Below, piece by piece: positions 18,770-33,119 of a DNA stretch of 64,000 nucleotides. The notes below the pieces were generated by a model. That model was not told the DNA's origin, ran no database searches, and saw nothing but the letters and a program-made list of their open reading frames with translations. Each line of letters opens with the position of its first letter. Within the stretch, counting starts at the first letter, position 1. The DNA is from Lentilitoribacter sp. Alg239-R112 (GTDB lineage Bacteria; Pseudomonadota; Alphaproteobacteria; Rhizobiales; Rhizobiaceae): positions 1-64,000 of the forward strand of contig NZ_LS999833.1 in NCBI RefSeq assembly GCF_900537175.1. The letters are read 5' to 3'. The translations under genes and the position numbers were made by a program.

Positions 18770-19432
18770 CTAAGCTGCATGACTGAAGTAACTTGCGATA
18801 TTCCGCTCTGGTTTAGATGTGACATATAGAGGCTCTGTGACAGTCAGTTTTTCACGCATTGAACTTAAAACTGTTTGACTTATTTCAAATTGACCACAAC
18901 AAACAGGACGTTTTCCATATCCATCTGCGCGCCCCAGCTCTGAAAAAGCAGCCCCTGAACGCTGATAGATGCGCTTCATCTGTGGTTCGTAATTGGAAAT
19001 CATCGTATGAATACCGTGTGCAAGCCCCGTTTCACACATTGCAATTAACATTAATGCAGAAGCACGCCCCGCAACCATATCTGGGTGATCAGCCTTTATA
19101 CTATCCATATCCATGCACATGCGAGTTGCCTCCCAAATTCCTGGAGCCTCGAAACTAACGACATTTGGAAAGGTTTTTCTAAAAACATCATACAACAAAG
19201 TCGGACCTGTTGTTGGCATAAGGCGCACAACAGCATAAAGCTCCATGCACGTATTATCGCACCACATCAGATAAGCTGGTTGATGATTGTCATAGACGTC
19301 TTTTTCATATTCTCCAATGACCGGAACATCCCACCCCAACTGATCGGCAAACACACGCTTACGCAGTCTAAACATCTGATCCATGAGTTCTGGGTACTTA
19401 TGGTATTCGTGAGCTTGTATTGTGATGAACAT
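18770..19432 (-). CDS. luxI: LuxI-type acyl-homoserine lactone synthase
   Basis: 220 residues. Conserved autoinducer-synthase features are visible: MFRLRKRVFADQLGWDV (the R-x3-F...W motif), YEKDVYDNHQPAYLM, RLMPTTGPTLLYDVF and WEATRMCMD. It makes an acyl-homoserine lactone from SAM and acyl-ACP. ATG 19432 is chosen because GGAGG lies five bases upstream. It lies directly downstream of luxR on the same strand, with a lux-box-like palindrome between them, so positive feedback is likely. Confidence 0.88.
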   Translation of the reverse strand: MFITIQAHEYHKYPELMDQMFRLRKRVFADQLGWDVPVIGEYEKDVYDNHQPAYLMWCDNTCMELYAVVRLMPTTGPTLLYDVFRKTFPNVVSFEAPGIWEATRMCMDMDSIKADHPDMVAGRASALMLIAMCETGLAHGIHTMISNYEPQMKRIYQRSGAAFSELGRADGYGKRPVCCGQFEISQTVLSSMREKLTVTEPLYVTSKPERNIASYFSHAA

Positions 19433-19518
19433 ATCTGCCTCCGGTTTTGTTTGTGAGGTAAACATGACGTCTATTTTGTTTTTTGAATATTCCTACAGAT
19501 GTACCGACACAACTGTAC

Positions 19519-19534
19519 CCGTACAAATGTACGT
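19519..19534 (-). promoter_or_regulatory. lux-box-like palindrome upstream of luxI
   Basis: CCGTACAAATGTACGT differs from the palindrome at 20327-20342 at only two of 16 positions. It lies about 90 bases upstream of the luxI start, leaving room for a LuxR-activated promoter. Confidence 0.65.
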
Positions 19535-19537
19535 GCC

Positions 19538-20266
19538 TTATTTCGGGTTTATCAATCTCATCTGGATCGCCTTAGCAACAGCCTGTGATAGTGAAGAGCA
19601 GTCCAATTTATAACGTGCTGACCTTGAATAAGAACGAATTGTATTCTCAGAAATACCGATAATGACGCCTATATCTTTGTGGTCTTTTCCTAGTGCAGTC
19701 CAATGTAGGACTTCTAATTCACGGGGTGCTAGCGCAGGTGTTGGATCACTCTCGCCAAACAATTCAGAGATAGCTTTTTTATGAAGAACATAACCTAGTT
19801 CTGACCAGTCTTCACGATATTGCTCGACGATTGAACTCCAGTCTTCTCCATCCTTACCGCCATTAAGAGAAAGAAGGGCACGACGGCTAACTTTATCAAT
19901 GATTGGTATTGAATATCCATTTGGATCTAAGCCAAAAGTTTGGAAATCAGTAAAAAGACCAATTGCACTTTCGTCAGGTTCTAACTCAGACCAGTCAAAG
20001 GGAAGCAAGCGCTTTACGCCCTCTTTAATTACAGGATCTACATTGACGTAACCCTTCATGACATAATGCCCAACCCATTCAGCAGGATATGTTGTTTTAA
20101 CATAGGGCGCATCTATGTTAACGCTCCCAGCAACAGTTTGCGCAAGATGGTATGAAGCATGTTCAATAGAGTAGTTATCCCGCAGGATATGAACGCCCTC
20201 TTGAACACTTTCCGCCGCTTGGATTTTTTCGAACGTTTCAATCCGACGTTGTTCTTGTTCTTCCAT
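19538..20266 (-). CDS. luxR: LuxR-type quorum-sensing regulator
   Basis: 242 residues. The N-terminal autoinducer-binding domain (about 20-165) carries the typical YPAEWVGHYVMKGYVNVDPV segment (W, Y and D ligand contacts), and the C-terminal LuxR helix-turn-helix (about 178-240) begins LAPRELEVLHWTALGKDHKDIG. It should bind the signal made by the adjacent LuxI. A perfect 16-bp palindrome lies 61 bases upstream and is shared with the divergent small gene at 20400. Confidence 0.88.
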   Translation of the reverse strand: MEEQEQRRIETFEKIQAAESVQEGVHILRDNYSIEHASYHLAQTVAGSVNIDAPYVKTTYPAEWVGHYVMKGYVNVDPVIKEGVKRLLPFDWSELEPDESAIGLFTDFQTFGLDPNGYSIPIIDKVSRRALLSLNGGKDGEDWSSIVEQYREDWSELGYVLHKKAISELFGESDPTPALAPRELEVLHWTALGKDHKDIGVIIGISENTIRSYSRSARYKLDCSSLSQAVAKAIQMRLINPK

Positions 20267-21119: not shown

Positions 21120-22505
21120 GTGTTACATGAGGTGCCACGTTTATATCTAACAGACAGCTTTATATTGAATGTAAAATGTCCTTCTAACAAGGACCAAATT
21201 CTTTACTGGGATCACCCTAAAACACTTGAGGGTAATATTCGCCATGGCGCACAAGCAGGCTTAGGGCTGCGCGTTACCAGCCAAGGTGCTAAATCTTTCA
21301 TTCACACCTTTCACTTTAATGGCAAACGAAAACGAACTGTCATTGCCAAAGCAGAGAAAATAGGTATTTCATCTGCTCGACTACTTGTTCAGCAAAGAGA
21401 TATTCAGATTGAATCTGGCTTAAACCCAGACGCTATTAAAACCAATTATCGTAGAAAACATGCCCTCACCTTTAGAGATATTGTAGACGAGTATTTTGAT
21501 ACGCACATTTGTAAACTTTCTCCAAAATACCAGCAAGAATATGCCCGTTATATTGCACCATGGCACGCTAAGCAAAGAAACACCAAAAACAAACGCGGCA
21601 GAAATATGAACTCAAACCTCATCGCTTTTGGCGCAACCCATGCAGATTCCGCTGCAAAAGATATAACACCATCCGATATTGGCGTGTTTATTCATAAAAT
21701 TAATTCAGACCACATCGCGAATGCTGCCCTTAAACAACTTAAAGCTTTATATAACTGGGCTATACGAATGCAGTTGATTGATATCCGTAATCCTTGCTCA
21801 CCACATCAAAACCGTAAAATTATTCGCCAACGCAGAGATTATACACCAGAAGATATCGCCACCCTCGCCGCTTATATTTTTAACCCACCGATTGAGGCAA
21901 GCAATGCACTCCTTGATGCAACACCAAGAGAACGACAAATAGCAGCCCTTAAACGCGGCGCATTACACCATCAAAACGCGCAGATGGACGAGCTGTGCCA
22001 TTTTCTAGGCATATTGTTTCTCACAATGGCAAGGCCTAATGAGCTAAAACAAGCTCAATTTGATCATTTCGATCTCAAGCGCCTTATCTGGCATAAACAC
22101 AACACCAAAGGTATTAAGCTCTCTAAGGCTACCTATGAATACGCCTACCGTTCTGTGCCCATTCACCCAAAAGTCGCTGAACTTGTGAGACAACAAAAAC
22201 AACGCTGGCCTGAATCCAATCTAGTCTTTCCATCTCACACAGATTTCACCAAACCGCGTGATAACTTTAACAAGGCCCTAAGTCGTTTTAAAAAGCTTGA
22301 TGGCGTGCCAAACCACTTCCAATTGTACGATGTTAAACGTATAGCGATTTCACTCATGCTCACTGGCCAAGGCATCAACCGTGAAGACGTAAGCCATTAC
22401 GTGGATCACAAGGGTAACCTTGAAACAACGATGATTTATGATCTCGGATTTGTGGATCCTATGCGACCTGTTGCTGAACGGCTGGGCGAACTTCTTGGTG
22501 TTTAA
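21120..22505 (+). CDS. P4-type tyrosine integrase
   Basis: 461 residues. An N-terminal DUF4102-like domain (GLGLRVTSQGAKSFIHTFHF; KAEKIGISSARLLV) is followed by a SAM-like domain and a catalytic domain with Arg in LTMARPNELKQA, the second Arg in YDVKRIAISLM, and the HYVDHKGNLETTMIYDLG block holding the nucleophilic Tyr. This class integrates into tRNA genes. GTG 21120 is the first start after an in-frame stop. The tRNA-Arg fragment just upstream is its likely site, separate from the tRNA-Trp site of the island. Confidence 0.85.
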   Translation: MLHEVPRLYLTDSFILNVKCPSNKDQILYWDHPKTLEGNIRHGAQAGLGLRVTSQGAKSFIHTFHFNGKRKRTVIAKAEKIGISSARLLVQQRDIQIESGLNPDAIKTNYRRKHALTFRDIVDEYFDTHICKLSPKYQQEYARYIAPWHAKQRNTKNKRGRNMNSNLIAFGATHADSAAKDITPSDIGVFIHKINSDHIANAALKQLKALYNWAIRMQLIDIRNPCSPHQNRKIIRQRRDYTPEDIATLAAYIFNPPIEASNALLDATPRERQIAALKRGALHHQNAQMDELCHFLGILFLTMARPNELKQAQFDHFDLKRLIWHKHNTKGIKLSKATYEYAYRSVPIHPKVAELVRQQKQRWPESNLVFPSHTDFTKPRDNFNKALSRFKKLDGVPNHFQLYDVKRIAISLMLTGQGINREDVSHYVDHKGNLETTMIYDLGFVDPMRPVAERLGELLGV

Positions 22506-24026: not shown

Positions 24027-24587
24027 TTACCAAACCCTTTCAGCCAGCTCGCGTTCTTGTTGGCCAATGATATTTGTGTAGATGAATGTGGTTTGGATGT
24101 CTTTGTGGCCCAACCACTTTTGGATGCGGTCTAGGGGAATATCTTTCATGACACCGCGCGTGCCATAGGTGTGACGTAGGCCTCTCGGGGTGGCTTTGAT
24201 GCCTGTTATGCCCGCCTGACCCATGGCTTGCTTGATGATCTTCCAAGCATGTGTTCTGCCCCAAAGGAATAGACGATTATTTTCTAATAACGTCAAATCA
24301 AATAGTGCGGCAAGGTGATCTTGCGGTGCTGGCACGCAGCGCATCACAATCCGCCCGCGCTTTTTGAGCGAGCGAAAAACGATAAACCCCTCTTCCACAT
24401 GAATATTACTTGGGCATAGTGATAACGCCTCAGAAATCCTACATCCTGTGTAGAGCAAGGTCAGGCAAAATAATTGCTCTGTGGGACCTAAGCAATTGAG
24501 CGCCTGCTTAAAAGCTTCGCGCTCATTGCTGGTAAGATATTTACGGCTGCCGTTTGATGAGAAAATTGAGTGAGTTGATTGACGCAT
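24027..24587 (-). CDS. FimB-sized tyrosine recombinase, candidate DNA invertase
   Basis: 186 residues holding only a catalytic domain: Arg in GCRISEALSL, GLRHTYGTRG with the second His-x-x-Arg, and LGHKDIQTTFIYTN with the nucleophilic Tyr. The lack of an arm-binding N-terminal domain and the length match FimB/FimE invertases rather than phage integrases. AGGAG lies six bases before the ATG. Two inverted 28-bp sites lie 87 and 230 bases upstream of its start, the arrangement of a self-contained inversion switch. Confidence 0.82.
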   Translation of the reverse strand: MRQSTHSIFSSNGSRKYLTSNEREAFKQALNCLGPTEQLFCLTLLYTGCRISEALSLCPSNIHVEEGFIVFRSLKKRGRIVMRCVPAPQDHLAALFDLTLLENNRLFLWGRTHAWKIIKQAMGQAGITGIKATPRGLRHTYGTRGVMKDIPLDRIQKWLGHKDIQTTFIYTNIIGQQERELAERVW

Positions 24588-24673: not shown

Positions 24674-24701
24674 GTGAACAAAATTGGTGTATTTTGTTCA
24701 C
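24674..24701 (+). repeat. Recombination-site-like repeat, left copy
   Basis: 11-bp arm GTGAACAAAAT, 6-bp core TGGTGT, 11-bp arm ATTTTGTTCAC. The arms are perfectly symmetric and the core is not, giving the site a direction. The 11-6-11 plan equals that of Xer-type crossover sites. Confidence 0.75.
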
Positions 24702-24816
24702 TAATTTGAATCACCCATTAACAATAATGGGTTAGCGCCCTGCGTATCAGGCCGTCTATGAACCTTACATGAACAGGAATCTCTATTTCAAGCTGTATTT
24801 TGGGCTTTTTTGAGGT
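24702..24816. other. Putative 115-bp invertible segment
   Basis: Lies between the two inverted 28-bp repeats. It contains two small hairpins (CCCATT...AATGGG and GCCCTG...CAGGC) and a possible weak minus-strand promoter (TTGAAA, 18 bases, TAAGGT) pointing to the recombinase gene. Flipping it would turn any promoter inside towards the operon at 24917. Confidence 0.55.
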
Positions 24817-24844
24817 GTGAACAAAATACACCAATTTTGTTCAT
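24817..24844 (-). repeat. Recombination-site-like repeat, right copy, inverted
   Basis: Reverse complement of the left copy, with core ACACCA and one mismatch at the outermost base (T for C). Confidence 0.75.
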
Positions 24845-24916: not shown

Positions 24917-25186
24917 ATGTCTGTTCAAACTATTCAGGTGAGCTCATCTGCGGCTATTGATAGCGCCGTAACTGGCTATCTCAATCAAGGTTTTACGGTT
25001 GCAAACCGCACCGATACCAAAGCCATTATGCAGAAGAACAAAGCGCCACTAAGCGCAGCTATGATTATTCTTGGCCTCATCGTCCCTATCTTTGGCTGGG
25101 CGTTCCTCATTGGCTATCTGATTATCCACGGTTCAAAGCCCGCATCTCAAGTGATTGAAATCAATCTGGCGGCTGAAGACTCATGA
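24917..25186 (+). CDS. 89-residue membrane protein, first gene of a possible phase-variable operon
   Basis: ATG 24917 has GGAG eight bases upstream. The N-terminal half (SAAIDSAVTGYLNQGFTVAN) is soluble; the second half forms a helical hairpin of two membrane spans (AAMIILGLIVPIFGWAFLIG). It overlaps the next gene by four bases (ATGA). Small proteins of this plan occur beside zinc-ribbon proteins, but no function is known. Its expression may depend on the upstream inverted-repeat segment. Confidence 0.65.
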   Translation: MSVQTIQVSSSAAIDSAVTGYLNQGFTVANRTDTKAIMQKNKAPLSAAMIILGLIVPIFGWAFLIGYLIIHGSKPASQVIEINLAAEDS

Positions 25187-28851: not shown

Positions 28852-29724
28852 ATGGATCATCTCACGATGGACCTTGTAAAGATAAGCCGTCGCCACCGCG
28901 ACGGTTCAATTGGCACACAGAAGAACCGCCAGCGAGGCCTAACCGCTATGGCTAAACAACTAAGTTCACTAGGGTATCAACTTAAATCTGCGCATAGCCT
29001 TAAACCAAAACACGTCCATGCTTTGGTAGAAACATGGCAGAACACAGATTGCACACCTGCAACGATTAGAAACAGATTAAGTTGGCTGAGATGGTGGGCA
29101 GAAAAGATTAATAAATCAGCGATTATTGAACGGAATAATCGCGCATATAATGCAGCAGACCGCAACACAATTGAGATCAATCGAGCACAATCTCTCGATC
29201 ATGAGAAACTCAACGCTATAGAATGCCCACATGTCAAAGCTGCCCTATTACTACAGGCCGCATTTGGCCTGAGACGTGAAGAAGCTATGAAGTTCCAACC
29301 AAGCTTTGCCATGGGGCAAGATAGAATTAAGCTGAAAGGAAGCTGGACAAAAGGCGGACGTTATCGAGAAATTCCAATAACCAGCGCCCATCAATACAAA
29401 GTATTAGATTTAGCGCAACGCATTGCAGGCAAAGGCTCATTAATCCCATCTGATAAATCTTATAGAAAACAGCTTAAGTCCTATGAATACCAGACGCTTA
29501 AAGCGGGTCTTAGAAATACCCATGGCCTAAGACATAAATACGCCCAATGGCGATATGCAAAGCTCACAGACATGCCCTGCCCTCACGCTGGCGGTAAACG
29601 CTGGCGCGACATGACCAAGCAAGAAAGAGCTAAAGACAGAGAGGCAAGACGTATGATTTCAAATGAGCTGGGCCATAGCCGCCTTGCGATTACCGATATT
29701 TATCTTGGAAAGGCAATGCGATGA
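28852..29724 (+). CDS. Tyrosine integrase of the plasmid/ICE type
   Basis: 290 residues. An N-terminal SAM-like DNA-binding domain (TPATIRNRLSWLRWWAEKIN) is followed by a catalytic domain with Arg in AFGLRREEAMKF, the HGLRHKYAQWRY block and ELGHSRLAITDIYLG with the nucleophilic Tyr. The Cys/His insert between the last two blocks (MPCPHAGGKRW) is typical of the integrases found on conjugative plasmids and ICEs (Phage_integr_N plus Integrase_1 architecture). No attachment repeat belonging to it is apparent. The start has a poor ribosome binding site. Confidence 0.8.
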   Translation: MDHLTMDLVKISRRHRDGSIGTQKNRQRGLTAMAKQLSSLGYQLKSAHSLKPKHVHALVETWQNTDCTPATIRNRLSWLRWWAEKINKSAIIERNNRAYNAADRNTIEINRAQSLDHEKLNAIECPHVKAALLLQAAFGLRREEAMKFQPSFAMGQDRIKLKGSWTKGGRYREIPITSAHQYKVLDLAQRIAGKGSLIPSDKSYRKQLKSYEYQTLKAGLRNTHGLRHKYAQWRYAKLTDMPCPHAGGKRWRDMTKQERAKDREARRMISNELGHSRLAITDIYLGKAMR

Positions 29725-31670: not shown

Positions 31671-33119
31671 CTAACGCTCCCTATCTTGTTCCGGCTCCCT
31701 TTCGAGTTCCTGTATCATTTCGTTCATAGCCTCATCCATTTCCTTGGGATGGCGAGGTTCACGATATGGCCCAGGCACCGGATGATCGTTTTCCGCTTCA
31801 GGTAGTTGCAAATAGTTTTTGAGGCGTTCGATCATTGGCTGCTTAATAGCTTTTTGATAAGCACCTATTCTGTCAATATCATCTTGCCTCTGAATTTCCT
31901 GCATTCGCCGCATTAAAATAACATCTTTCGCAGCCTGGACAGCGTATTTACCCATTTCAGCAGCTTCTTCTAAAAGCTGTTTTTCTTGGTAGGTTCGATA
32001 CATATTGGATGCGCGAAGATAGACACTTTTTTGTGCATTTTCTATACGTTCACGCCGTGCCGCATCCATTTCTAAATCTTGCTTGTAAAGCTCGTGACGT
32101 GAGGCACGGTCATCCTGCGGTATATATGTTGCATCTTGCTGAAGCTCCGACGTTTGCTCAACATCTAATTCAAGCGACTGCGCCTCATATTCTGGCGGTA
32201 CAAGTTCTTGTTCCTCTATCCGTTCAAGTTTTTGATCCTGCCAGTAACGGTGTAGCTCTTCCCGCTCCGCTAATTTCATATCATGGGTGGGGACCTCTTT
32301 CGGTGGCCAATCATCTCTTTGCGTCAAGTTTGGATAAAGTTCTTTATCTGTTTGAGTTGGCTCTTGCATGTCACTCTCCTGTTCAGGCCGTTCCATTTCG
32401 TTTGATGTTTCTTCAACCTGTGCATGTTCATGCACTATCGGCTGAGAAGTATTTTCATGGTGATGCGAAGCATCTCGATGAGGCCCGCGATGCTTGGTCG
32501 GTTCCGCCTCAATCCCACGGGCCTTATAACTGCGGTGATCAACCCGTAGGGATGATCCCGATTTTTCTAAATATAGGTTGGTTATATCCGCCCACGCTTT
32601 GCGCGTTTCGGTAATAAACTTGCGTGTATCAATTGCTGTAATCTTGCCGCTAAATCCATCACGATCTAACGCAAAGGTCGTCAGTAAAATATGCGCATGG
32701 GGATTATGATCCTTTGGATCGTTATGAATGGCCACATCCACCACGCAGCCCATCGCAACAAACGGTTTAATAAAATCTTTGAGAAGCTGAATGCGATCAC
32801 GTGCGGGAACATCCCGCGTGAACGCCGCTTCAATCTTTTTTGCTAGTCGCGAATCTTTACGCTTGGCATTTTTTTCTACTGCATTCCAAAGTTGAGCACG
32901 ATTTTTGGCCCAATTCGCTGTTCCGTTTGGCGCAAAAATCTCTGCAAAAATCACATCATCATCACCCGCGTCTCGCGCGATGATCTCTTTATTTCTCTTA
33001 TCGCTAAACAGCGTTTCGCCCGACTGATAGGATGCCGCCACAATCGCGCTGCGCTGCCTCACATCTTCATTTTTGGCTGAAACATTGCCAATATGGCAAT
33101 GGATATTTCCGTCCTGCAT
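31671..33119 (-). CDS. MobA/MobL-family (MOBQ) relaxase
   Basis: 482 residues. The N-terminal relaxase domain has the catalytic Tyr in IVAASYQSGETL and the metal-binding motif HNPHAHILLTT. The C-terminal half is a Glu/Gln-rich coiled-coil region without helicase or primase motifs. It nicks oriT and pilots the strand. It is divergent from the coupling-protein gene across a region rich in inverted repeats, the probable oriT. No other mobilisation or mating-pair genes are present. Confidence 0.85.
   Translation of the reverse strand: MQDGNIHCHIGNVSAKNEDVRQRSAIVAASYQSGETLFSDKRNKEIIARDAGDDDVIFAEIFAPNGTANWAKNRAQLWNAVEKNAKRKDSRLAKKIEAAFTRDVPARDRIQLLKDFIKPFVAMGCVVDVAIHNDPKDHNPHAHILLTTFALDRDGFSGKITAIDTRKFITETRKAWADITNLYLEKSGSSLRVDHRSYKARGIEAEPTKHRGPHRDASHHHENTSQPIVHEHAQVEETSNEMERPEQESDMQEPTQTDKELYPNLTQRDDWPPKEVPTHDMKLAEREELHRYWQDQKLERIEEQELVPPEYEAQSLELDVEQTSELQQDATYIPQDDRASRHELYKQDLEMDAARRERIENAQKSVYLRASNMYRTYQEKQLLEEAAEMGKYAVQAAKDVILMRRMQEIQRQDDIDRIGAYQKAIKQPMIERLKNYLQLPEAENDHPVPGPYREPRHPKEMDEAMNEMIQELEREPEQDRER

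Follow-up and report, generated by a model that had tools for sequence, protein, structure and literature searches.

A 115-bp segment bounded by two matched, inverted recombination sites lies between the gene for a 186-residue tyrosine recombinase and a divergent three-gene operon in Lentilitoribacter sp. Alg239-R112, and this locus very probably functions, or did so until very recently, as an invertible-promoter switch. Here, using the window (the whole 64,000-nucleotide stretch that was analysed) together with homologous loci from other bacteria, we describe the sites and their recombinase, the recurrence of such pairs 5′ of related recombinase genes, two cases in which the homologous segment is present in both orientations, and a promoter-like sequence within the segment that would serve the genes on either side in turn.

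Sites and recombinase of the window locus

The proximal site reads GTGAACAAAAT TGGTGT ATTTTGTTCAC and the distal site GTGAACAAAAT ACACCA ATTTTGTTCAT (Table 1). As an earlier note on this DNA had stated, both follow exactly a plan of 11-bp arm, 6-bp core and 11-bp arm, and an inverted-repeat search confirmed its claim that the asymmetric core stands in opposite orientation in the two copies, 115 bp apart: the pair forms a 27-nt inverted repeat, 100% complementary, with 115 nt separating the arms. The arms had also been called fully symmetric, which holds over these 27 nt but not for the final base of the right site, a T instead of a C. Allowing up to three mismatches, the site pattern occurs at two places in the whole window, each on both strands (0.00 expected, from 100 shuffles), with one extra place in the 3.9-Mb genome, a weak match with three mismatches. 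The arrangement by which invertons are recognized, inverted repeats around a short segment, is present in the window.

Table 1 Features of the predicted switch and the adjoining genes in the window
Feature	Position	Strand	Remarks
Tyrosine recombinase, 186 aa, predicted invertase	24027..24587	-	PF00589 match, conserved active-site positions
Recombination site proximal to recombinase gene	24674..24701	+	11-6-11 plan
Predicted invertible segment, 115 bp	24702..24816	.	Two related genera have homologous 106-bp segments in either orientation
-10-like hexamer TAAGGT	24762..24767	-	Prediction; 18 bp after the -35-like hexamer
-35-like hexamer TTGAAA, facing recombinase	24786..24791	-	Prediction; offset 26 from distal site, like relatives
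Recombination site distal from recombinase gene	24817..24844	+	Core of the proximal site, inverted
Cargo gene 1, 89 aa	24917..25186	+	Single hydrophobic stretch; no match among Pfam families
Cargo gene 2, 221 aa	25183..25848	+	Lipoprotein-signal-like N terminus
Cargo gene 3, 458 aa	25869..27245	+	N-terminal CxxC...CxxC zinc-ribbon-like motif, hydrophobic stretch, no Pfam family

The length of the open reading frame and its match to Pfam PF00589 (E = 2.9e-18; 66.7 bits against a gathering score of 27.1) bear out the description of a minimal tyrosine recombinase at 24027, which has 782 homologs at E ≤ 1e-3, among them P0002–P0004 with 70–72% identity. Tyrosine recombinases share the catalytic set R, K, HxxR, H/W and Y. 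Residues R50, K75, R138, H139, H161 and Y170 are each shared by 64 or all of the 65 aligned family rows, and the first His of HxxR is replaced, by Arg135 in the window and by Lys (53) or Arg (12) across all 65 aligned rows; XerA carries His at this position in the structure-search alignment. The window recombinase is 38–42% identical to the recombinases of the loci with an inverted segment described below, and forms the longest end branch (1.62) of the recombinase tree.

Matched site pairs in homologous loci

At E ≤ 1e-20, 58 distinct homolog places were found, of which 51 were scored with a profile of the half-site, whose consensus is GAAACAGAAT, allowing cores of 5 or 6 bp, as were loci L114 and L116; two places in genome G414 and one each in G360, G186 and G280 were left unscored. 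The profile superseded an earlier scan with a fixed 6-bp core, which missed many loci because the cores of the relatives are 5 bp long. An inverted pair stands 5′ of the recombinase gene in 38 of the 51 loci, with cores identical when inverted in every case and, in 35 of the 38, sites 129–143 bp apart. The lowest score among paired loci is 20.6, against a maximum of 14.4 among 153 control stretches. The other 13 loci have no site pair by the profile; one of them, L022, scores 16.5, which exceeds the best control, but lacks a core match and was counted as unpaired.

Because the profile score rewarded core identity, sites were chosen again by their arms only, in 55 loci (L105, L107, L114 and L116 in addition to the 51), using an arm profile trained on the same loci, which affects the finding of arms and not the identity of cores. 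Two sites were found in 41 of the 55, and their cores are identical in inverted orientation in 39 (the exceptions being L015 and L032) and in direct orientation in none. Between different loci, cores agree in 70 of 1640 comparisons (4.3%), with 20 kinds represented among the 41 distal cores. Start-to-start spacings are 129–135 bp in 31 loci and 141–143 bp in six, followed by 148 and 155 bp; this clustering, observed among related sequences with kinship ignored, is no more than suggestive of a helical-turn constraint on site spacing.

The core is 6 bp long in the window and 5 bp in the other 37 pairs found by the profile. This difference, together with the divergence of the window recombinase, would fit a relic, that is, an ancestral switch that has lost inversion in the window organism. 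Such decay is hard to reconcile with a recombinase frame that is open and retains the active-site positions conserved in the family, or with the inverted identity of the window pair, the highest of the 51 loci at 27/28 in the fixed 6-bp scan, whose plan favours the window, and fifth by half-site profile score. As the identical 6-bp core in both window sites points to continued exchange or to selection, we consider a relic the least probable of the readings weighed here, and keep to that of a switch that works or did so very recently.

On the recombinase tree, paired and unpaired loci separate, with 5 changes against a shuffled mean of 19.1, a clustering that near-copies inflate. The deep order of this tree is poorly supported, 22 of the 61 inner branches being open, so that it speaks neither for nor against one origin of the paired loci, and the placement of the window is unsure. 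Among the loci that are unpaired by the profile, L016 and L019 have, by eye, repeats with other arms; in L016, an Aquimarina plasmid, two similar palindromic repeats with non-profile arms lie about 160 and about 60 bases before the gene, apparently in direct order. In L110, two good sites stand 84 bp from each other but differ in their cores.

The segment in both orientations

Loci L041 and L042 come from two species of one genus and encode recombinases that are 98% identical. Their segments agree at 105 of 106 positions when one is inverted, against 60 of 119 columns in the forward alignment, and their 100-bp flanks are identical at 98/100 and 100/100 positions; in L039 and L043 the segment is oriented as in L042. 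In a second genus, the segment of L036 (one locus with L115) agrees with that of L116 at 94 of 106 positions when inverted and in 51 of 118 columns forward, between flanks that are identical at 93/100 and 93/102. In both comparisons the outer half of each site has remained beside its flank and the inner half has travelled along with the segment; a core base that is C in L036 is T in both sites of L116. Exchange of half-arms across an identical core matches the prediction of conservative site-specific recombination.

The earlier note had proposed a search for a homologous locus in the opposite orientation, and two independent cases now supply one: L041 compared with L039, L042 and L043, and L116 compared with L036 and L115. 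These comparisons of assembled loci show that inversion has taken place at such sites in two relatives. Both are made across species, so they establish that inversion occurred without thereby giving its frequency. The other alignable pairs, among L033, L037 and L114, share one orientation. A genus search around G048 yielded L116; the equivalent searches for G242 and G068 turned up no pair of loci in opposite orientation. When plasmid records were searched with the DNA of L105 and L041, no second copy was near enough for orientation to be compared.

The exchange of half-arms bears equally on a reading of the sites as paired operators, raised beforehand as a possible refutation, in which the recombinase-like protein or another dimer would bind the palindromes, loop the DNA and repress the divergent promoters without recombination. 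The palindromic arms, the promoter-like sequence between the sites and the clustered spacings, which looping would likewise favour, are all compatible with it. An identical asymmetric core would serve no need of such operators, however, yet it is kept inverted within almost every two-site locus while differing between loci, and segments that are inverted with exchanged half-arms exist. The operator reading explains neither observation and we judge it very unlikely as a substitute for inversion, although looping repression could act alongside it.

A promoter-like sequence within the segment

A positioned promoter was defined as TTGNNN-N17-18-TA starting 22–40 bases from the distal site, an offset range set after viewing the data, and was counted in 39 segments from which six near-copies had been removed. 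Such a sequence faces the recombinase in 22 of the 39, including the window, against a mean of 1.99 and a maximum of 7 in mononucleotide shuffles, which preserve base content only. Its offset is 26–28 in 15 segments, 36–38 in six (all with site spacings of at least 141) and 30 in one; other offsets scored 0–3 segments. In the remaining 17 segments no such sequence is directed at the recombinase, the predicted promoter of the window is weak, being missed by a scan with a stricter consensus, and the best promoter located anywhere in the segment points toward the recombinase in 24 of 38, showing little preference. A positioned promoter faces the other side in five segments (two of which have one each way). 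These include L041 and L116, in which, inverted relative to their relatives, the same promoter is directed at the opposite side.

On the basis of these observations, we propose a mechanism in which the 186-residue recombinase would bind and pair the two palindromic-arm sites, and strand exchange inside the 6-bp cores would invert the 115 bp between them. In the assembled orientation the segment's single promoter would serve the recombinase and leave the three-gene operon without one (OFF); after inversion it would serve the operon (ON) and deprive the recombinase. As the predicted promoter of the window faces the recombinase, the assembly probably represents the state with the recombinase ON and the operon OFF. 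The earlier suggestion, that inversion could switch a promoter on and off for the operon or else for its recombinase neighbour, thus stands in that both sides would be served, and is amended in that the predicted promoter would serve them in turn. We infer promoter activity, inversion in Lentilitoribacter sp. Alg239-R112, ON/OFF expression and an envelope role of the operon.

Were the segment promoter also the main promoter of the recombinase, the switch would have built-in feedback, with the flip that turns the cargo on starving the enzyme. Switching may be rare or biased, given that 22 segments face the recombinase and five the other side. If the feedback is real, this excess needs a cause, such as selection against the cargo in culture or repression mediated by the sites.

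Cargo genes

The first ATG of the operon is at 24917, 72 bases past the right site, as had been noted. The N terminus of the second product, MKRIIYPVIALVLAGC, can be read as a lipoprotein signal (lipobox), and the three genes plausibly make up a surface operon. The same product gives a sub-threshold match to Pfam Peptidase_M61 (19.3 bits against 22). This cargo is rare: among the matches listed, gene 2 has two homologs and gene 3 is found in three proteins including itself. A protein encoded on a 6,312-base public contig, P0124, is 97% identical to cargo protein 2.

By crude calls of open reading frames, 25 of 36 paired loci have a first frame past the distal site that points away from the switch, and the other 11 do not, compared with 0 of 5 unpaired loci. 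A crude N-terminal hydrophobicity rule, applied with no control, would place 15 of these 25 products among exported or membrane proteins, window gene 1 not being one of them. A Pfam scan of 38 cargo proteins assigned two to an outer-membrane beta-barrel family and left 25 or more without a match at 0.001, so a common cargo function is not established.

A cargo family of about 100 residues recurs in five loci (L057:4891-5187, L062:5418-5780, L085:1864-2085, L095:5181-5483 and L098:5046-5303) and, by the tally, apparently is not one of those to which the Pfam scan gave matches. The cargo proteins at L055:3931-4791 and L059:5860-6690 are related to one another (E about 1e-6) and have a DxLGIxxG-like motif in common; by eye, window cargo protein 3 has a similar DIIGIKTGM.

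Relation to known systems

Much work has been done on promoter inversion in enteric bacteria, clostridia and Bacteroides, and the window locus is best classed with the invertible-promoter switches of the FimB/MrpI kind, as a variant of them. The fimS segment of Escherichia coli is 314 bp long and is inverted between inverted repeats, with its promoter, by the roughly 200-residue recombinases FimB and FimE. The segments of the window family are shorter, at 97–130 bp between 25–26-bp sites, and the window system has one recombinase rather than two, and long symmetric arms. The earlier likening to fim switches holds in that the two appear to work alike, but the window recombinase lies outside the curated FimB/FimE families, scoring 48.2 bits against NCBIfam PRK09871 and 36.9 bits against PRK09870, whose cut-offs are 222 and 221.

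The 11-6-11 plan is also that of dif. The 28-bp window sites share this likeness to the XerC/XerD-dif system, and both the closest solved structures and the best NCBIfam matches of the recombinase include XerA and XerD. Its scores of 69.8 bits for XerA, 64.0 for XerD (TIGR02225) and 48.6 for XerC (TIGR02224) are nevertheless below the respective cut-offs of 220, 329.6 and 335.15; with XerC and XerD cut-offs missed and arms symmetric, XerCD-dif identity was rejected, in keeping with the prior argument from symmetric arms for one dedicated recombinase.

In layout, by a comparison of recombinase, promoter and cargo, the nearest known system appears to be MrpI of Proteus mirabilis, with FimB/FimE next. 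MrpI flips an element carrying the sigma-70 promoter of the mrp operon and, in the available text of the source, is encoded by an independent transcript (PMC7444556), whereas the predicted promoter of the window segment faces the recombinase in one orientation. The mrp cargo is fimbriae, whereas that of the window family is diverse and mostly uncharacterised. The invertons surveyed with PhaseFinder and PhaVa are likewise segments that flip between inverted repeats (PMC11868660, whose available part names FimB and FimE alongside an invertible promoter); unlike these, the window family was delimited through homology of its recombinases and the layout of its sites, not by a survey. Large inverton survey tables may hold members of it. 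A smaller read survey gives, in its available part, inversions in 0 of 4 Alphaproteobacteria (PMC5903667).

Literature searches, which had subscription papers and the large survey tables outside their scope, returned no description of this recombinase and site family among the matches listed, nor does the available text of PMC3414803 or PMC4272514 contain one. An alphaproteobacterial family with predictable sites and promoter position offers testable switches where phase variation is little known, and its 25–28-bp sites, with natural variation of the core between loci, may permit a compact one-enzyme inverter.

Apparent carriage on mobile elements

The window integrase at 28852-29724 (Phage_int_SAM_2/Integrase_1) has counterparts of 47–49% identity in three of 40 longer loci (L050, L051 and L087), and L050 additionally has relatives of the window integrase at 21120-22505 and of the MobA/MobL protein at 31671-33119, beside switch cargo that differs from that of the window. 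At least some of the switches therefore seem to move with integrated mobilizable elements and to change cargo. A recombinase match is present in 319 plasmid records, and among 12 examined for sites there are pairs in two, both from Methylobacterium (L105 and L107; spacings of 132 and 133 bp), and none by the profile in ten. The unpaired homologs include those of five Acetobacteraceae plasmids of 16–46 kb (L017, L018, L109, L111 and L112), which lie near parA and a WGR-domain gene and are perhaps a multimer-resolution branch of the recombinase family.

These plasmid homologs raise the further reading that the sites resolve multimers or cointegrates of a carrier element, the second inverted site being accessory. 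The several homologs that adjoin partition and replication genes, and the loci without a site pair, fit this reading, which probably applies to the small-plasmid relatives next to parA. For the paired loci it meets the difficulty that identical inverted sites on one molecule give inversion, not resolution; all five loci near parA are unpaired, paired and unpaired recombinases separate on the tree, and genes reading away past the switch are confined to the paired side of the comparison above. As an account of the window sites, we hold resolution to be even less probable than operators, and inversion remains the preferred reading.

Whether these features amount to a distinct alphaproteobacterial toggle is, in our assessment, an evenly balanced question. 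In such a toggle, enzyme-driven flips would alternate a promoter between its own invertase and exchangeable envelope cargo; the module would have spread with mobile elements, its cores kept matching within each locus while changing from locus to locus, and its sites at the preferred spacings of 129–135 and 141–143 bp, and would form an undescribed family. Turning the cargo on would then shut off the enzyme able to turn it off.

Searches of viral contigs gave no close relatives of the window locus, and a scan of genome contigs gave two distant clostridial loci and nothing more; the 48 matches in phage records are all below 60% identity, at 26–33% among the matches listed. In a Sphingomonas parapaucimobilis plasmid (L108), with no clear pair by the profile, the recombinase homolog is divergent from EAL-domain and spore-coat-U-like genes. 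In the window itself, adjoining reading frames at 18770-20266 resemble, by eye, an autoinducer synthase and a LuxR-type regulator.
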